Assembly: GCA_003562475.1 (NCBI GenBank)
Contig: PWUU01000110.1
Location: 1-64,000, forward strand
Direction: 5' to 3'
DNA length: 64,000 bases
Origin: Dehalococcoidia bacterium
GTDB taxonomy: Bacteria; Chloroflexota; Dehalococcoidia; GIF9; AB-539-J10
Below the pieces are notes generated by a model that ran no database searches, was not told the origin of the DNA, and saw nothing but the letters and a program-made list of their open reading frames with translations. Position numbers and translations under genes: made by a program. This document shows, piece after piece, positions 2,366 through 22,526 of the stretch (position 1 is the first letter of the stretch; each line of letters starts with the position of its first letter).

Positions 2366-2800
2366 TTATACTCGAGACGGTGCAGCCGGACGATAGAGAA
2401 CGACGGGGCATGGCGCTTGCCGGAGCACATACGACGTTGTGGCACTGATATCGAAGATGCCGAGTCGATATCGATACCCGGCTCCCATCACAATCAGATC
2501 AGCTCGCCCCTCGCTCGCTTCAGTGACAATCGCAGGGCCAGTCTCTCGAGCTTGTAGCAGGCATGTATCGATCTCGTAGCCATACTCATGGGCGATAAGC
2601 TCGGCACGTGACAGTATCTCCTCGCCCTTCGTGCATTGTTCTTCCAGTGATGCGTTCAGAGGCAGGCTCCTCTCCACCTCAATGACGTATACTGCGCAGA
2701 TCGACGCATCGCTGGCTTCGGCAAAGTCACACGCCATGCGGATGGTCTCTGCATCCTCCTGAGTTCCGCTTATCGGTACCAGTATCTTGCTGATGTCCAT
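2366..2800 (-). CDS. Universal stress protein (UspA domain)
   Basis: A single UspA domain of 144 residues, the usual size. It begins with the typical first strand (MDISKILVPISG) and ends with the last strand (APCPVVLYRP). The family ATP-binding signature G-x2-G-x9-G-S/T is only partly kept: the protein reads GAGYRYRLGIFDIS, so the final G-S/T is missing. This may be a non-ATP-binding member. Function is inferred from the family (stress survival); the partner is unknown. It is the first of four UspA genes in the window. Confidence 0.85.
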   Translation of the reverse strand: MDISKILVPISGTQEDAETIRMACDFAEASDASICAVYVIEVERSLPLNASLEEQCTKGEEILSRAELIAHEYGYEIDTCLLQARETGPAIVTEASEGRADLIVMGAGYRYRLGIFDISATTSYVLRQAPCPVVLYRPAAPSRV

Positions 2801-3221
2801 TCAACCAAGCAGGGTAGTAGCTTGTGAATGATTAGTCAAAAACGCATCTCCTCCCGTAGAGGGTGCGTATCAAGTAGATTACGTGCCTTTGATTGATCAT
2901 TCGCCCGCGGTAGCTTGGTGCGTGTGCCAGTGATAACAATTGCCACAGGATCATTGGTCGCATTTGCGGGCACCGTTGTACTCGATGATCAAGGGCAGAG
3001 GTAACCTCGGTGAGTGTCGAAGCCGATCTGAGTCCACCGACTGGTAGTTCTCGGACTGCGGTCGCATCGTAACTGTGGGTTATCGAATCCAGGTTTGTGT
3101 TAGTATTGTCATGTAGGCCTCTACGTGAGTCCGACCCCCTGTCCGGTGAGATCCAGCTCAACAGAGAGTTAACTATGTGCTGGTGCGGTAGCGTCAGCAC
3201 GAAGTAGAGGGATGAAGAGAG
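2801..3221. other. Intergenic, divergent promoter region
   Basis: About 420 bases between a minus-strand UspA gene and a plus-strand operon, so it should hold promoters for both. A 151-codon minus-strand frame spans it and runs into the next gene; it has no domain-like composition and is treated as chance. Confidence 0.4.
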
Positions 3222-3959
3222 GTGGGGCGCAAACCTGTCAGAAAAGGGGTGGTGCTCGCAGCCGGTGACGGTGGCCGTTTCGGTCAACTCACGTCGAGAA
3301 CTCCCAAGGTGCTGCTGCGGGTCCTTGGCAAGCCCCTGATCCGCTATTCAATAGAAGCGCTGGTGCGGGCAGGCATCACTGAGATTGCGATCGTCGTCGG
3401 CCACCTCGGCGACAGGGTAGTCACGTTTCTGCACCACAACCGTATTCCCGGAGTGAGGGTGGAGCACATTCCCAACCCGGACTACCGGTACGGCAATGCC
3501 ATCTCAGTAGAAGCAGCCGGTTGCTGGGCGGGAGACGAGCCTTTCGTTCTCTGCATGGGCGACCACATCATGCACCGGGATTACATCTTCCGTTTTCTGG
3601 ATGCGATGCCCAGCCGAGAAACCCTGGCGGTTGACTTCAGGCCTGGAAATCACCATGTGTTGGAAGAAGCTACCAAGGTCCGGATCGACGGCAACAGGTG
3701 CGTACGGAATATCGGCAAGGAGTTGACGCGTTGGGACGGCATTGACTGTGGCATCTTTCTGCAAACGGCGGACTTCGTGAGCGCCATCAGGGAACTGCGC
3801 CTCGCCCGTGGCCCAGGCATCGGCATCAGCGATGTTGTCAGGTTCATGGTGGATTGCGGCCACCGCTTCGACACTTGTGAGACGACCGGTCTCTTCTGGG
3901 CCGACATAGATACTGCGGAGGATATGCTCCTGGTACAAGGTGCCGAGAGATGGCTATAA
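3222..3959 (+). CDS. Sugar/inositol-phosphate nucleotidyltransferase, probable CTP:inositol-1-phosphate cytidylyltransferase (IPCT)
   Basis: A nucleotidyltransferase of 245 residues. It shows the N-terminal loop AAGDGGRF (13-20), TPK at 27-29, the GDHIM strand at 113-117 and the late metal/substrate motif DIDT near 228-231. GDHI in place of a sugar-type motif, the late pattern around NIGKEL and IDCGIF, and a CDP-alcohol phosphotransferase overlapping its end match the IPCT half of bifunctional IPCT-DIPPS enzymes of Archaeoglobus and other thermophiles. Those make CDP-inositol and then di-myo-inositol-phosphate phosphate. The start is GTG with an upstream GAGG. An alternative is a sugar-1-phosphate nucleotidyltransferase serving polar-lipid synthesis. 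The assignment rests on recalled family patterns. Confidence 0.75.
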   Translation: MGRKPVRKGVVLAAGDGGRFGQLTSRTPKVLLRVLGKPLIRYSIEALVRAGITEIAIVVGHLGDRVVTFLHHNRIPGVRVEHIPNPDYRYGNAISVEAAGCWAGDEPFVLCMGDHIMHRDYIFRFLDAMPSRETLAVDFRPGNHHVLEEATKVRIDGNRCVRNIGKELTRWDGIDCGIFLQTADFVSAIRELRLARGPGIGISDVVRFMVDCGHRFDTCETTGLFWADIDTAEDMLLVQGAERWL

Positions 3960-4660
3960 GCACGGCATATGACGGATTCATCTCCAGGCATGTTAATCGC
4001 CGGTTGTCGGAACCGGTGGCGAGACTGCTCGCAAAAACCGGGGTGACCCCCAATCAAGTAACGTGGGCTGCGTTGATTATTGCCATTGCCTCCGGTTGCC
4101 TCTTTGCCCTGGGGGTCAACGTTGCCGGCGGGATCGTTGCACAGCTTGCCTCTATTGCCGATGGAGTGGACGGTGGACTGGCGCGCCTCAAAGACCTTAG
4201 CTCCTCTTTCGGCAGCCTGCTGGACGCCGTCCTGGACCGTTATGCCGATGCTGTCATAGTGCTGGGTATGACGCTGTGGTCACTGGGTCACGAAAGCTAC
4301 CCGGCTATCTGGGCCGTGGGTTTTGCCGCTGCTGTTGGCACTATGGCAGTCAGCTACACAAGAGCTCGTGCGAGCCCTGCGTACCACCCTTTCCTGGACA
4401 GAGGATTTGCCTCTCTCGCGTCGCGTGATATCCGCCTGTTTCTTGTCATGCTCGGGGGGCTCACCGGGCAGGTGTATTTCTGCCTGCTGCTCATTGCCTC
4501 GCTGACTAACCTGATGGTCTTCCACCGCCTTGTGTGTGTCTACCGCCTTTCGATGGCGAAGAGTGGAGGAGAGGGTGGATTCATTGACCGTGACCATGAG
4601 TTTACTGAGGCCGTTGCTGTACGGGAGCTGGAACGCGATGAACGTGTGCGACCGCTCTAG
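3950..4660 (+). CDS. CDP-alcohol phosphotransferase, probable di-myo-inositol-phosphate-phosphate synthase (DIPPS-like)
   Basis: An integral membrane enzyme of 236 residues that condenses a CDP-alcohol with a second alcohol. The CDP-alcohol phosphotransferase signature D-G-x2-A-R-x8-G-x3-D-x3-D is complete (D74, G75, A78, R79, G88, D92, D96). The N-terminus, with SRHVNRRLS followed by TPNQVT, resembles the start of the DIPPS half of archaeal bifunctional enzymes. About four to six hydrophobic segments follow. The ATG lies inside the upstream cytidylyltransferase gene (10-base overlap), so the two are translationally coupled. The likely product is phosphorylated di-myo-inositol phosphate, a heat/osmotic solute; archaetidyl- or phosphatidyl-inositol-phosphate synthase is the alternative. 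No inositol-1-phosphate synthase gene lies in the window. Confidence 0.75.
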   Translation: MAISTAYDGFISRHVNRRLSEPVARLLAKTGVTPNQVTWAALIIAIASGCLFALGVNVAGGIVAQLASIADGVDGGLARLKDLSSSFGSLLDAVLDRYADAVIVLGMTLWSLGHESYPAIWAVGFAAAVGTMAVSYTRARASPAYHPFLDRGFASLASRDIRLFLVMLGGLTGQVYFCLLLIASLTNLMVFHRLVCVYRLSMAKSGGEGGFIDRDHEFTEAVAVRELERDERVRPL

Positions 4661-5069
4661 AGCGACACGGTTGGCAATGCGGCGCGACCACGCGTTGATC
4701 GATCCTGCCAAACGTCATCTGGGCAGCGCTCGTGGTGAATCTCCTGACGAACACATGGCGCTACGAGTGTCATGGCAGATAAGCTGCGAGGCGCCAGGTG
4801 AATCTCATGCTTTCCAGGCATCATTGTCATGACAGTAGCTTTGTGGCTATGGCAGCTACGATTACGATCGGAAGGTGCTTTGTTTGCCCGATTGGCCCCA
4901 TTCGTGGCTGATGATGGTGGGTTTCCAGCCAGGCGGGCAATCGGCGTCAACGTCACTTCATACGACTTTCCTTCATTGGCACAAGTGCCTGAACACTGTT
5001 AGCTACACGCGGTAGTGCGCACACATTGTTTGAGGCCGTTCATTCCTGGATCGTCACCCCGAGGAGTCA
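4661..5069. other. Intergenic, no gene seen
   Basis: About 400 bases between the DIPPS-like gene and a PAS remnant. Frames on both strands lack recognisable domains. It may hold decayed 5' sequence of the PAS gene, but nothing can be read. Confidence 0.35.
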
Positions 5070-5580
5070 TTGGATGTCAGGCTGAGGCTGCTTGTGGAGA
5101 GTGCAGGGAACATCGTCCGGACTGTGGACATGGAGATGCGCCCTCCCTGCATCAGCAGTTCAGTGCGACGTCACCTGGCATATACGCGGGAAGAAGCTAC
5201 GCGTGTCAGGACGGAGGATGTGTTCGCCCCCGATTCATATCAACCGGCCATGGAGGTGCTCGCAGAGGAAATTGCCAGAGACCAGTCGCCGCATTGCGAT
5301 GCGGACAGGACTCGAACCATCGAGGTAGATCTTGTCCACAGAGACGGGCAGCTTTCGAGCAATCAATAGATGCCGTCTACATGGTCTCCGCTTGAAGGCG
5401 CAATCGTAGGTGTGAATCAGGCATGGCTTGATCTGTTCGACTATAGTCGCGAGGAACTATCGCACATCAACGCGATTGGTCTCTATGCTAATGCCACCGA
5501 CAGAGGAGTGTTCCTGCAGCGGCGGCAGTTGGTGACATGCACACCTCGCGTTAGGTCAACGGGATCGAACGAAACGGCGT
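5070..5580 (+). pseudogene. Decayed PAS-domain sensor protein
   Basis: Two PAS-like blocks can be read but not in one open frame. The first (about 5085-5340) reads RLLVESAG, then ISSSVRRHLAYTREEA, FAPDSY and VDLVHRDGQ. The linker FEQSIDAVYMVS then appears in another frame (about 5350-5390), and the second block (GVNQAWLDLFDYSREEL, then NATDRGVFLQRR) returns to the first frame after a stop at 5367. Two compensating frameshifts plus loss of everything after the second PAS core mark it as a pseudogene of a multi-PAS signalling protein. The output domain (kinase or cyclase) is gone. The frames are seen directly; the ancestral type is inferred. Confidence 0.7.
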
Positions 5581-5836
5581 CCCAGGCGCCATCTCGTGCA
5601 CCATTGACCCGGCAGCGCCACGTTAGATGGCGTGTGCACCAGCCTTGATCCTTGCACTGCGATGTGCGGTGGGCCGAGACACTTGCTGTATGCTGCCGTG
5701 TAGGGCGGCCATGGTGCCGTGGTGAATTGTCAAGGTAAGATGGCGTACTTCCGCCTTACGGCCGGCGCAACCATACAGGCTGCCTCACAGTCCGGTGTAT
5801 CGTGGGGAAACACACGAGGGGTAAACCGTGGGGCGA

Positions 5837-6115
5837 CTATGATCGACGCTCGGACCTGAAGTAGTCGGCCACGCTCCGGCCGAATTCCTCCGCGGCCTCA
5901 CCGGCCTGGCGAAACCGCTCGCGCACATCGTCATCCTTGAACCGGCGACCGAGGTGAATGGCGGATTCGGTCGCCGCGTCCCCAAACTCCCTCGCTTTGG
6001 CCTTCAGTTCCGGGTCGTTGAACACCTCGCTGAAGGCTTCTCCAAGCGCCGTGAACATCTGACGCAAGCTGTCGCTGGCGCCGCTCTCTTTTCCCTGTCT
6101 CTCTTGCTCCTTCAT
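5837..6115 (-). CDS. Small helical hypothetical protein
   Basis: A protein of 92 residues, rich in charged and Ala/Glu/Phe residues and predicted almost all helical (for example the stretch ALGEAFSEVFNDPELKAKAR). It has no signal peptide, membrane segment or cysteine. GGAG stands about 8 bases before the ATG. It follows a UspA gene on the same strand after about 70 bases, so co-transcription and a stress-related role are possible. No family was recognised. Confidence 0.65.
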   Translation of the reverse strand: MKEQERQGKESGASDSLRQMFTALGEAFSEVFNDPELKAKAREFGDAATESAIHLGRRFKDDDVRERFRQAGEAAEEFGRSVADYFRSERRS

Positions 6116-6183: not shown

Positions 6184-6639
6184 CTAGTGCTTCACTGGCT
6201 GTGGCTTCATGGAGAGGACGGGTATGTGAGTGTGCCGCATCACGTGATCTGCCACGCTGCCGAACACGAGGCGCCCGATGTTCTTGCGACCGTGGGTAGC
6301 GATTGCGATGAGGTCGATTCCACTCGTTGCCGCATACTCAACGATGGCATCGCCGGGCGATCCCTCGATGGTCACCGTGTTCACGGCGAGTCCGCGTTCC
6401 CTCAATCCTGCGGCGACACCCTCGAGGTACTGCTTTGCTTCATACGCGAGGCGTCGCATCTCCTCCTCGATGACGCTCTCAGCCCCCTGTGCGGAGGCGG
6501 CTGCAAGCGATGATGGAATCTGGAGGACCTGGAGCAGTAGTACTTGTGCGCCAAAGCGATGGGCGATCTCGGCAGCGTAGGGGACCATCTGTTCTGAATG
6601 AGTTGAACCGTCAAGACAGACCAGTATCCTGTTGAACAT
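6184..6639 (-). CDS. Universal stress protein (UspA domain)
   Basis: A UspA domain of 151 residues starting MFNRILVCLDGS. The nucleotide-binding stretch is present as ATHGRKNIGRLVFGSVAD, with the final G-S of the ATP motif kept, followed by IPVLSMKP. Compared with the UspA gene near 2.4 kb this copy keeps the residues expected for ATP binding. The small helical gene downstream on the same strand is probably in the same transcript. Role inferred from family only. Confidence 0.9.
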   Translation of the reverse strand: MFNRILVCLDGSTHSEQMVPYAAEIAHRFGAQVLLLQVLQIPSSLAAASAQGAESVIEEEMRRLAYEAKQYLEGVAAGLRERGLAVNTVTIEGSPGDAIVEYAATSGIDLIAIATHGRKNIGRLVFGSVADHVMRHTHIPVLSMKPQPVKH

Positions 6640-21225: not shown

Positions 21226-21681
21226 ATGTACAAGAAGATGCTGGTACCCCTTGACACATCGAGTTTCGCAGAATGCGTGTTCGACCACGTCAAGGAAATT
21301 GCATCTGCACGAGTTATACCCGAGGTTGTGTTACTCACAGTGGTGGAGCCGCCAAACCCGTCCGCGTATGTCTACCTCGGTGCGCAACGTGTCCAGGAAG
21401 CTGAAGAGAGGGCCGTCACAAGTTCGTTTGAGTATCTTGAGAAGACAAGAGCCACGCTTGGACTTACGAATTCCACGGTTACAACGGCGGTTCATGTTGG
21501 CGATGCCGCAGAAAAGATACTGCAGTATATAGAGGCGAACGGAGTCGACCTTGTGGTGATGAGCTCGCATGGGAGAGGCGGTGTCTCCAGGTGGTATTTG
21601 GGAAGTGCGGCCGATAAGGTATTGAGGAGGTCGCCGGTTCCCGTGGTTCTGGTGCCGTCGCTCATGTGCCGTGGTGGGTGA
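21226..21681 (+). CDS. Universal stress protein (UspA domain), copy 1 of a pair
   Basis: A UspA domain of 151 residues: MYKKMLVPLDTS at the start, and the complete ATP motif in SSHGRGGVSRWYLGSAADKV, then VPVVLVPS. GAGGAGG precedes the ATG. Its closest relative is the gene at 22068: the first 12 residues and most of the ATP motif match. The pair looks like a local duplication separated by about 390 bases. Confidence 0.92.
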   Translation: MYKKMLVPLDTSSFAECVFDHVKEIASARVIPEVVLLTVVEPPNPSAYVYLGAQRVQEAEERAVTSSFEYLEKTRATLGLTNSTVTTAVHVGDAAEKILQYIEANGVDLVVMSSHGRGGVSRWYLGSAADKVLRRSPVPVVLVPSLMCRGG

Positions 21682-22067: not shown

Positions 22068-22526
22068 TTGTACAAGAAGATGCTGGTACCCCTTGACACA
22101 TCGGACTATGCGGAGTGTGTACTTAACCACGTGAAGGAGATTGCTACAGCTTGGGCGATACCCGAGGTGGTTCTTCTTGTTGTCGCCGAACCAACGTATG
22201 TTCCGGCAGATTCATTTCTTGGAGAACAGGTCGTCAAGCAGGCCGATGAACAGGCGATAGAGTACGCATCTGAATACCTCGAACGAACCAAGAACTCGCT
22301 TGGGCTGACCAAGTCAGAAGTGACCACTGTTGTGCGGTCCGGAAAGCCTGCGGAGGAGATAATCGACTACGTAGAGAAAAATGGCCCCGACCTTGTTGTC
22401 ATGAGTTCTCACGGGAGATCTGGTGTATCCAGGTGGTACCTCGGCAGTGTGGCGGATAAAATGGTCAGGAGTGCGCCTGTACCAGTACTTCTCGTGCCGT
22501 CCCTCGTATGCAGAGCAGCACTGTAG
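22068..22526 (+). CDS. Universal stress protein (UspA domain), copy 2 of a pair
   Basis: A protein of 152 residues, paralogous to the gene at 21226: it opens YKKMLVPLDTSDYAECVLNH and has the full ATP motif SSHGRSGVSRWYLGSVADKM. The start is TTG, aligned with the ATG of the sister gene and placed five bases after GAGGAGGT. An ATG five bases upstream is out of frame. Lower translation than its sister is possible because of the TTG. Confidence 0.9.
   Translation: MYKKMLVPLDTSDYAECVLNHVKEIATAWAIPEVVLLVVAEPTYVPADSFLGEQVVKQADEQAIEYASEYLERTKNSLGLTKSEVTTVVRSGKPAEEIIDYVEKNGPDLVVMSSHGRSGVSRWYLGSVADKMVRSAPVPVLLVPSLVCRAAL

Follow-up and report, generated by a model that had tools for sequence, protein, structure and literature searches.

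Does a bacterium of the class Dehalococcoidia make di-myo-inositol phosphate (DIP), and with which enzymes? The question is raised by two overlapping genes at one end of the window, by which we mean the whole 64,000-nt stretch of DNA analysed here. The first-pass annotation had read them as a split IPCT/DIPPS pair carrying the diagnostic motifs of both halves. Both open reading frames and both motifs are indeed present, and the proposed role in DIP synthesis is supported by a PDB profile search in which IPCTs come first, by the residues of the donor pocket and by an inositol-1-phosphate synthase in the genome; the nearest solved relatives of the second protein are the soluble-donor enzyme AF2299 and the A. 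fulgidus IPCT-DIPPS, ahead of polar-lipid enzymes. We consider it probable that a soluble inositol phosphodiester is the product of the pair, DIP being the best candidate.

The gene pair and its cytidylyltransferase

The first gene (3222-3959, forward strand) starts with GTG, downstream of an in-frame stop at 3213-3215, and encodes a 245-aa protein of the CTP:inositol-1-phosphate cytidylyltransferase (IPCT) type. It overlaps by 10 bases the second gene (3950-4660, forward strand), which starts with ATG and encodes a 236-aa CDP-alcohol phosphotransferase (CDP-AP) of the DIPPS / AF2299 (soluble-donor) type. The respective Pfam families are NTP_transf_3 and CDP-OH_P_transf, and the codon-position GC of the pair is that of the adjoining genes. 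The NCBIfam model for bifunctional IPCT/DIPPS, NF041135, matches the first protein over model positions 2-210 (7e-31, 107.6 bits) and the second over positions 222-418 (7e-35, 120.8 bits), so that the two align to the model in the correct order with matches far beyond chance. Its cut-off of 580 bits, set for a model specific to fused Thermococcales proteins, is reached neither by either half nor by the two summed.

Several other features surround the pair. Four universal stress protein genes are found in the window (2366-2800, 6184-6639, 21226-21681 and 22068-22526), two of which flank the pair. Between the pair and the next of them, positions 5015-5648 hold frame-broken fragments in which PAS-type sensor domains can be recognised by eye; a Pfam search of the part at 5070-5366 gave no match, and the broken fragments suggest gene decay. 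A small protein of 92 aa encoded on the reverse strand (5837-6115) has no Pfam family but is 49% identical to one encoded beside the pair in a relative (L031:434-775 in G051; BLASTP 2.9e-27), making it a possible conserved neighbour. Two RpoD-like sigma factors, 58% identical, are encoded on one contig (window 568-2019 and L183:14150-15637). An Rfam scan of the 64-kb window gave no match.

Is the first protein a true IPCT? A profile built from it and five relatives was searched against the PDB, and the top entries were AfIPCT (2xme; 117 bits, 6.9e-33), AfIPCT-DIPPS (4mnd; 115 bits, 4.3e-32) and TmIPCT (4jd0; 108 bits, 5.4e-30). The next protein, a glucose-1-phosphate thymidylyltransferase, scored 82 bits, a gap of at least 26 bits, which places the window protein nearer to IPCTs than to nucleotidyltransferases acting on sugars or phosphocholine. 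When 77 family members were aligned with proteins of solved structure, its R19, K29 and D114 fell on R16, K26 and D112, the catalytic residues of TmIPCT (PMC12275187), D114 lying within the GDHIM motif (residues 113-117). An IGK...DxGxF motif is common to the window protein and both solved IPCTs and is absent from RmlA and LicC-like proteins; likewise, the IPCT-type residues N92, K166 (in the IGK motif) and D175 are missing from RmlA and from a LicC-like protein encoded within the genus, and T151, M112 and H115 are as in AfIPCT. From these IPCT-specific residues the protein is predicted to couple inositol-1-phosphate with CTP. A different, oppositely oriented pair, of a LicC-like nucleotidyltransferase and a CDP-AP of about 260-290 aa, occurs in other genomes of the genus (L044:6504-8171, L045:5019-6679 and L047:1747-3146).

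A phosphotransferase with a predicted soluble-donor pocket

The second protein contains DGVDGGLARLKDLSSSFGSLLDAVLDRYAD, that is, the full D-x2-D-G-x2-A-R-x8-G-x3-D-x3-D signature with all eight residues. Searched alone against the PDB, it matched AF2299 best (1.9e-34), followed by the near-equal AfDIPPS (1.5e-15) and PIPS (2.9e-15); a family profile separated the three at 158, 107 and 68 bits, and a Foldseek search with an AlphaFold model (mean pLDDT 79) gave this ranking too, with AF2299 ahead of IPCT-DIPPS and then PIPS.

Could the second gene instead encode an enzyme of polar-lipid synthesis, a phosphatidylinositol-phosphate synthase, with the first as a sugar nucleotidyltransferase unrelated to it? 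The models for AIP and PIP synthases do score high with the second protein (116 and 102 bits, next to 121 for the DIPPS model), yet the genome holds a separate lipid-type PIP synthase paralogue, its second CDP-AP (L041:18-617), with which the same models give 147 and 146 bits versus 49 for DIPPS. The donor site also argues for a soluble substrate. Of the residues of MtPIPS, M69 and P153 touch the lipid donor, and R155/R195 have been proposed as the binding site for the acceptor phosphate, whereas AF2299 and AfDIPPS, which do not process lipids, have a small hydrophilic donor pocket (PMC4634129). At the aligned positions (MtPgsA1 numbering) the window protein has Gly69, Asp153, Arg155 and Arg195. 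Gly/Asp occupies the two donor positions in AF2299, in AfDIPPS and in every DIPPS-like member checked; the lipid-type paralogue has Leu/Pro, and its relatives in the class Leu, Met or Ile with Pro or Ala. The window protein thus lacks lipid-groove residues of the Met69 and Pro153 type, and a tree of 92 proteins does not place it with the PIP synthases: lipid-type enzymes form one clade (100/100), and the window protein falls outside it, with DIPPS-type enzymes. Within these its partner is a protein of the Dehalococcoidales MAG RS_16_7 (95/92), and both belong to a Dehalococcoidia clade of nine members (100/99). The position of AF2299 with AF0263 in this tree was set aside, as long branches meet there and their exact placement is unsafe. 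Given also that the nucleotidyltransferase is IPCT-like and not RmlA-like, a polar-lipid role for the pair is very improbable. On the evidence of signature, donor-pocket and acceptor-arginine residues, we predict a hydrophilic donor pocket with a phosphate-binding Arg pair, and transfer from CDP-inositol to inositol-1-phosphate.

A closer competitor to DIP is another soluble phosphodiester, for instance glycero-phospho-inositol, formed from CDP-glycerol and inositol-1-phosphate, or a different polyol phosphate diester. AF2299, which tops the PDB matches of the second protein, binds CDP-glycerol (PMC4634129); IPCT relatives with other substrates are known, such as CpgD, which acts on 3-phosphoglycerate and is 24% identical to TmIPCT (PMC12275187); and residue 135 of the acceptor site varies, being Arg in the window protein, Ala in most fused enzymes, Gly in AF2299 and Ser in AfDIPPS. 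Against this stand the IPCT-specific residues of the partner protein and the gene neighbourhoods of fused homologues. A scan of named genomes confirmed at least 312 relatives, and 80 loci were taken for comparison. Split or fused homologues turn up in many MAGs of bacteria and archaea. Among the matches listed, split pairs prevail in Chloroflexota and fused genes in Bacillota, Thermodesulfobacteriota, Nitrospirota, Stahlbacteria, Caldisericota, Methanophagales and others; a same-strand inositol-1-phosphate synthase gene lies no more than 2.5 kb away at 30 of the 47 fused loci listed, an independent linkage that supports inositol as the substrate of the wider family. A product other than an inositol-inositol diester is accordingly unlikely, and DIP remains our preferred reading.

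Inositol supply, the last step and the state of the locus

The first-pass annotation had made its reading depend on two things: nearest characterised relatives that are not polar-lipid enzymes, as is the case here, and an inositol source. No inositol-1-phosphate synthase was matched by PF07994 in the own genome or in 100 relatives, and inositol thus seemed unavailable; this was ruled out as a false negative. Among the named genomes with the family, PF07994 found long-type synthases in seven and, in four, only weak matches (E 1e-4 to 4e-3) to proteins of about 370-400 residues. A short-class profile built from three such proteins detected a myo-inositol-1-phosphate synthase homologue in the own genome (G000:C80:97434-98501; E 4.9e-155), whose top PDB match is the inositol-3-phosphate synthase 1gr0 (1.2e-142), and a short-class synthase in 95 of the 100 relatives. 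PF07994 therefore overlooks short-class synthases, and surveys using it would wrongly report Dehalococcoidia as being without inositol synthesis. The inositol phosphatase that the annotation had named alongside the synthase did not turn up: PF00459 (inositol monophosphatase) had no match in the own genome, nor in five of six carriers searched.

The synthase gene does not adjoin the window pair. In relatives, it is the lipid-type CDP-AP that adjoins the synthase, as in L185, where infB- and rbfA-like genes are close by; this arrangement further argues against a lipid role for the window pair. In the own MAG, C80 ends just past the synthase and the lipid-type gene is the first on C56, a layout that fits a contig break. 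Phosphatidylinositol lipid synthesis thus appears to be class-wide, and the window pair looks like an accessory branch drawing on the same inositol-1-phosphate pool.

The pathway that we propose would start with the C80 enzyme, which is present and presumably converts glucose-6-phosphate to L-myo-inositol-1-phosphate, a pool that would also supply the separate lipid synthase. The first protein of the pair would join inositol-1-phosphate and CTP to give CDP-inositol, and the second, a membrane enzyme, would use CDP-inositol as donor of phospho-inositol to another molecule of inositol-1-phosphate, yielding di-myo-inositol phosphate phosphate (DIPP) and CMP. A phosphatase, for which there are candidates only, would finally remove the terminal phosphate of DIPP to give DIP.

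Which enzyme might carry out this last step? In seven of the nine-member closest clade the pair is followed by a gene for a HAD-IB, MtnX-like protein (TIGR01489 above cut-off; nearest PDB entry 2fea), in L048 after one intervening gene, and the same holds for the more distant L061, L062 and L064. In most close relatives this directly downstream HAD protein is probably the phosphatase, and we regard the HAD of Chloroflexota loci as a candidate. The window contains no such gene or remnant, and the own genome lacks the operon-type HAD, encoding only a 38% identical paralogue on C59, which adjoins exonuclease-like and uvrA-like genes and occurs in almost every genome of the family. Since the downstream gene is missing here, the C59 paralogue or another enzyme would be needed. 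At 22 of the 47 fused loci, among the matches listed, the IPCT-DIPPS gene is followed by a DUF4202/HD-like gene (for example L083:6581-7159, L122:6581-7174, L112:2887-3453 and L103:6590-7201), whose product is a possible phosphohydrolase of the pathway. Adjacency is no proof of a role for either, and both are candidates only, though they offer two testable proteins for the DIPP phosphatase reaction. A class-level relative has a gene of the LicD family (L038:1543-2604) separating CDP-AP from HAD, and the CDP-activated product could have another use there.

The missing HAD gene also brings up the idea that the pair is a leftover, part of an eroding locus that yields no finished solute in this strain. 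The CDP-AP of the pair has counterparts in only nine others of the 100 relatives (42-61% identity; twice in G008), and no other genome of the same genus has an intact copy, the genes being patchy within the genus. In one of these genomes, G004, a decayed CDP-AP fragment (L046:408-728) immediately precedes a HAD gene of the operon type; the fragment keeps 52% of the conserved columns, has lost the LDRYAD motif, and is a pseudogene left over from this operon. To this can be added the broken PAS-like fragments after the pair and the long branch of the window protein (0.60 versus 0.06 in its sister). However, both window genes are intact, all catalytic residues are kept, and 94-95% of family-conserved columns are retained in the two proteins, within the range of other members. 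Moreover, the genus stem is also long in the PIP synthase paralogue (0.74), indicating that fast evolution is not specific to the second gene. An inactive remnant is therefore quite improbable, more so than a different soluble diester, and a working pair that makes DIP is favoured.

Host temperature and comparison with known systems

The first-pass annotation had found it puzzling that a solute of high-temperature organisms should be made here. The puzzle is weaker than it claimed, since the genes occur widely across MAGs that are not known to come from thermophiles. The host itself is likely mesophilic. A search of its MAG (95% complete, 8.7% contamination) gave no reverse gyrase above cut-off and one topoisomerase-like half. 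The 16S rRNA, a temperature proxy, is not in the MAG. The trehalose genes placed by the same annotation at 23.5-28.5 kb are real and comprise a GT20 and trehalose-phosphatase fusion, a nucleotidyltransferase and TreT. More broadly, and only tentatively, probably non-thermophilic Dehalococcoidia and other Chloroflexota may make DIP by split IPCT/DIPPS pairs, with the MtnX-like HAD of the relatives as DIPP phosphatase; if true, a HAD protein takes the role usually assigned to inositol monophosphatase. The occurrence in many bacterial MAGs of the pair, and of fused homologues that often adjoin inositol-1-phosphate synthase, suggests that inositol phosphodiesters may serve as solutes quite generally, rather than marking adaptation to heat.

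How does the pair compare with known systems? The A. fulgidus IPCT/DIPPS (4mnd, 2xme) and the NF041135 enzymes have the same module order and share the IPCT-specific and CDP-AP signature residues, the soluble-donor positions and the phosphate-acceptor arginines. They differ in being encoded by one fused gene where the window has two overlapping ones, identity in the membrane domain is about 28%, and the window's host is not known as a thermophile. The T. maritima IPCT (4jd0), a 251-residue protein in its structure, is a stand-alone cytidylyltransferase like the first protein, so that there is precedent for an unfused IPCT; both have the GK...DxG motif, although TmIPCT has GDS where the window protein and AfIPCT have GDH. 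AF2299 (4o6m, 4q7c) is the nearest solved relative of the second protein (35-36% identity), with the same Gly/Asp donor pocket, but its CDP-AP is fused after a cytidylyltransferase-like N-terminal domain for which the first window gene gave no match when searched against the PDB; its crystal bound CDP-glycerol, and the window protein's own clade has no characterised member. The PIP synthases (MtPgsA1, RsPIPS) share the fold, the catalytic signature and the inositol-phosphate acceptor arginines, whereas their lipid-groove Met69/Pro153 is Gly/Asp in the window protein, and a separate gene fills the lipid role here.

Deep-sea Thaumarchaeota are a further known case, for which DIP synthesis in non-thermophiles is likewise predicted. 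Ammonia-oxidising archaea (AOA) of deep sediments have been called the first non-thermophiles with DIP genes, known before only from organisms growing above about 55 °C (PMC8397731), and in hadal Thaumarchaeota an inositol monophosphatase near the fused gene has been proposed for the last step (PMC7265257). A search by title and abstract of open-access literature found no paper on DIP genes in Dehalococcoidia. As DIP genes in non-thermophiles have already been reported (PMC8397731), what is new here is a bacterial, split member of the family and, in its relatives, a candidate phosphatase partner, in contrast to the archaeal ipct/dipps, which is fused, and in a genome where no PF00459 phosphatase was found.
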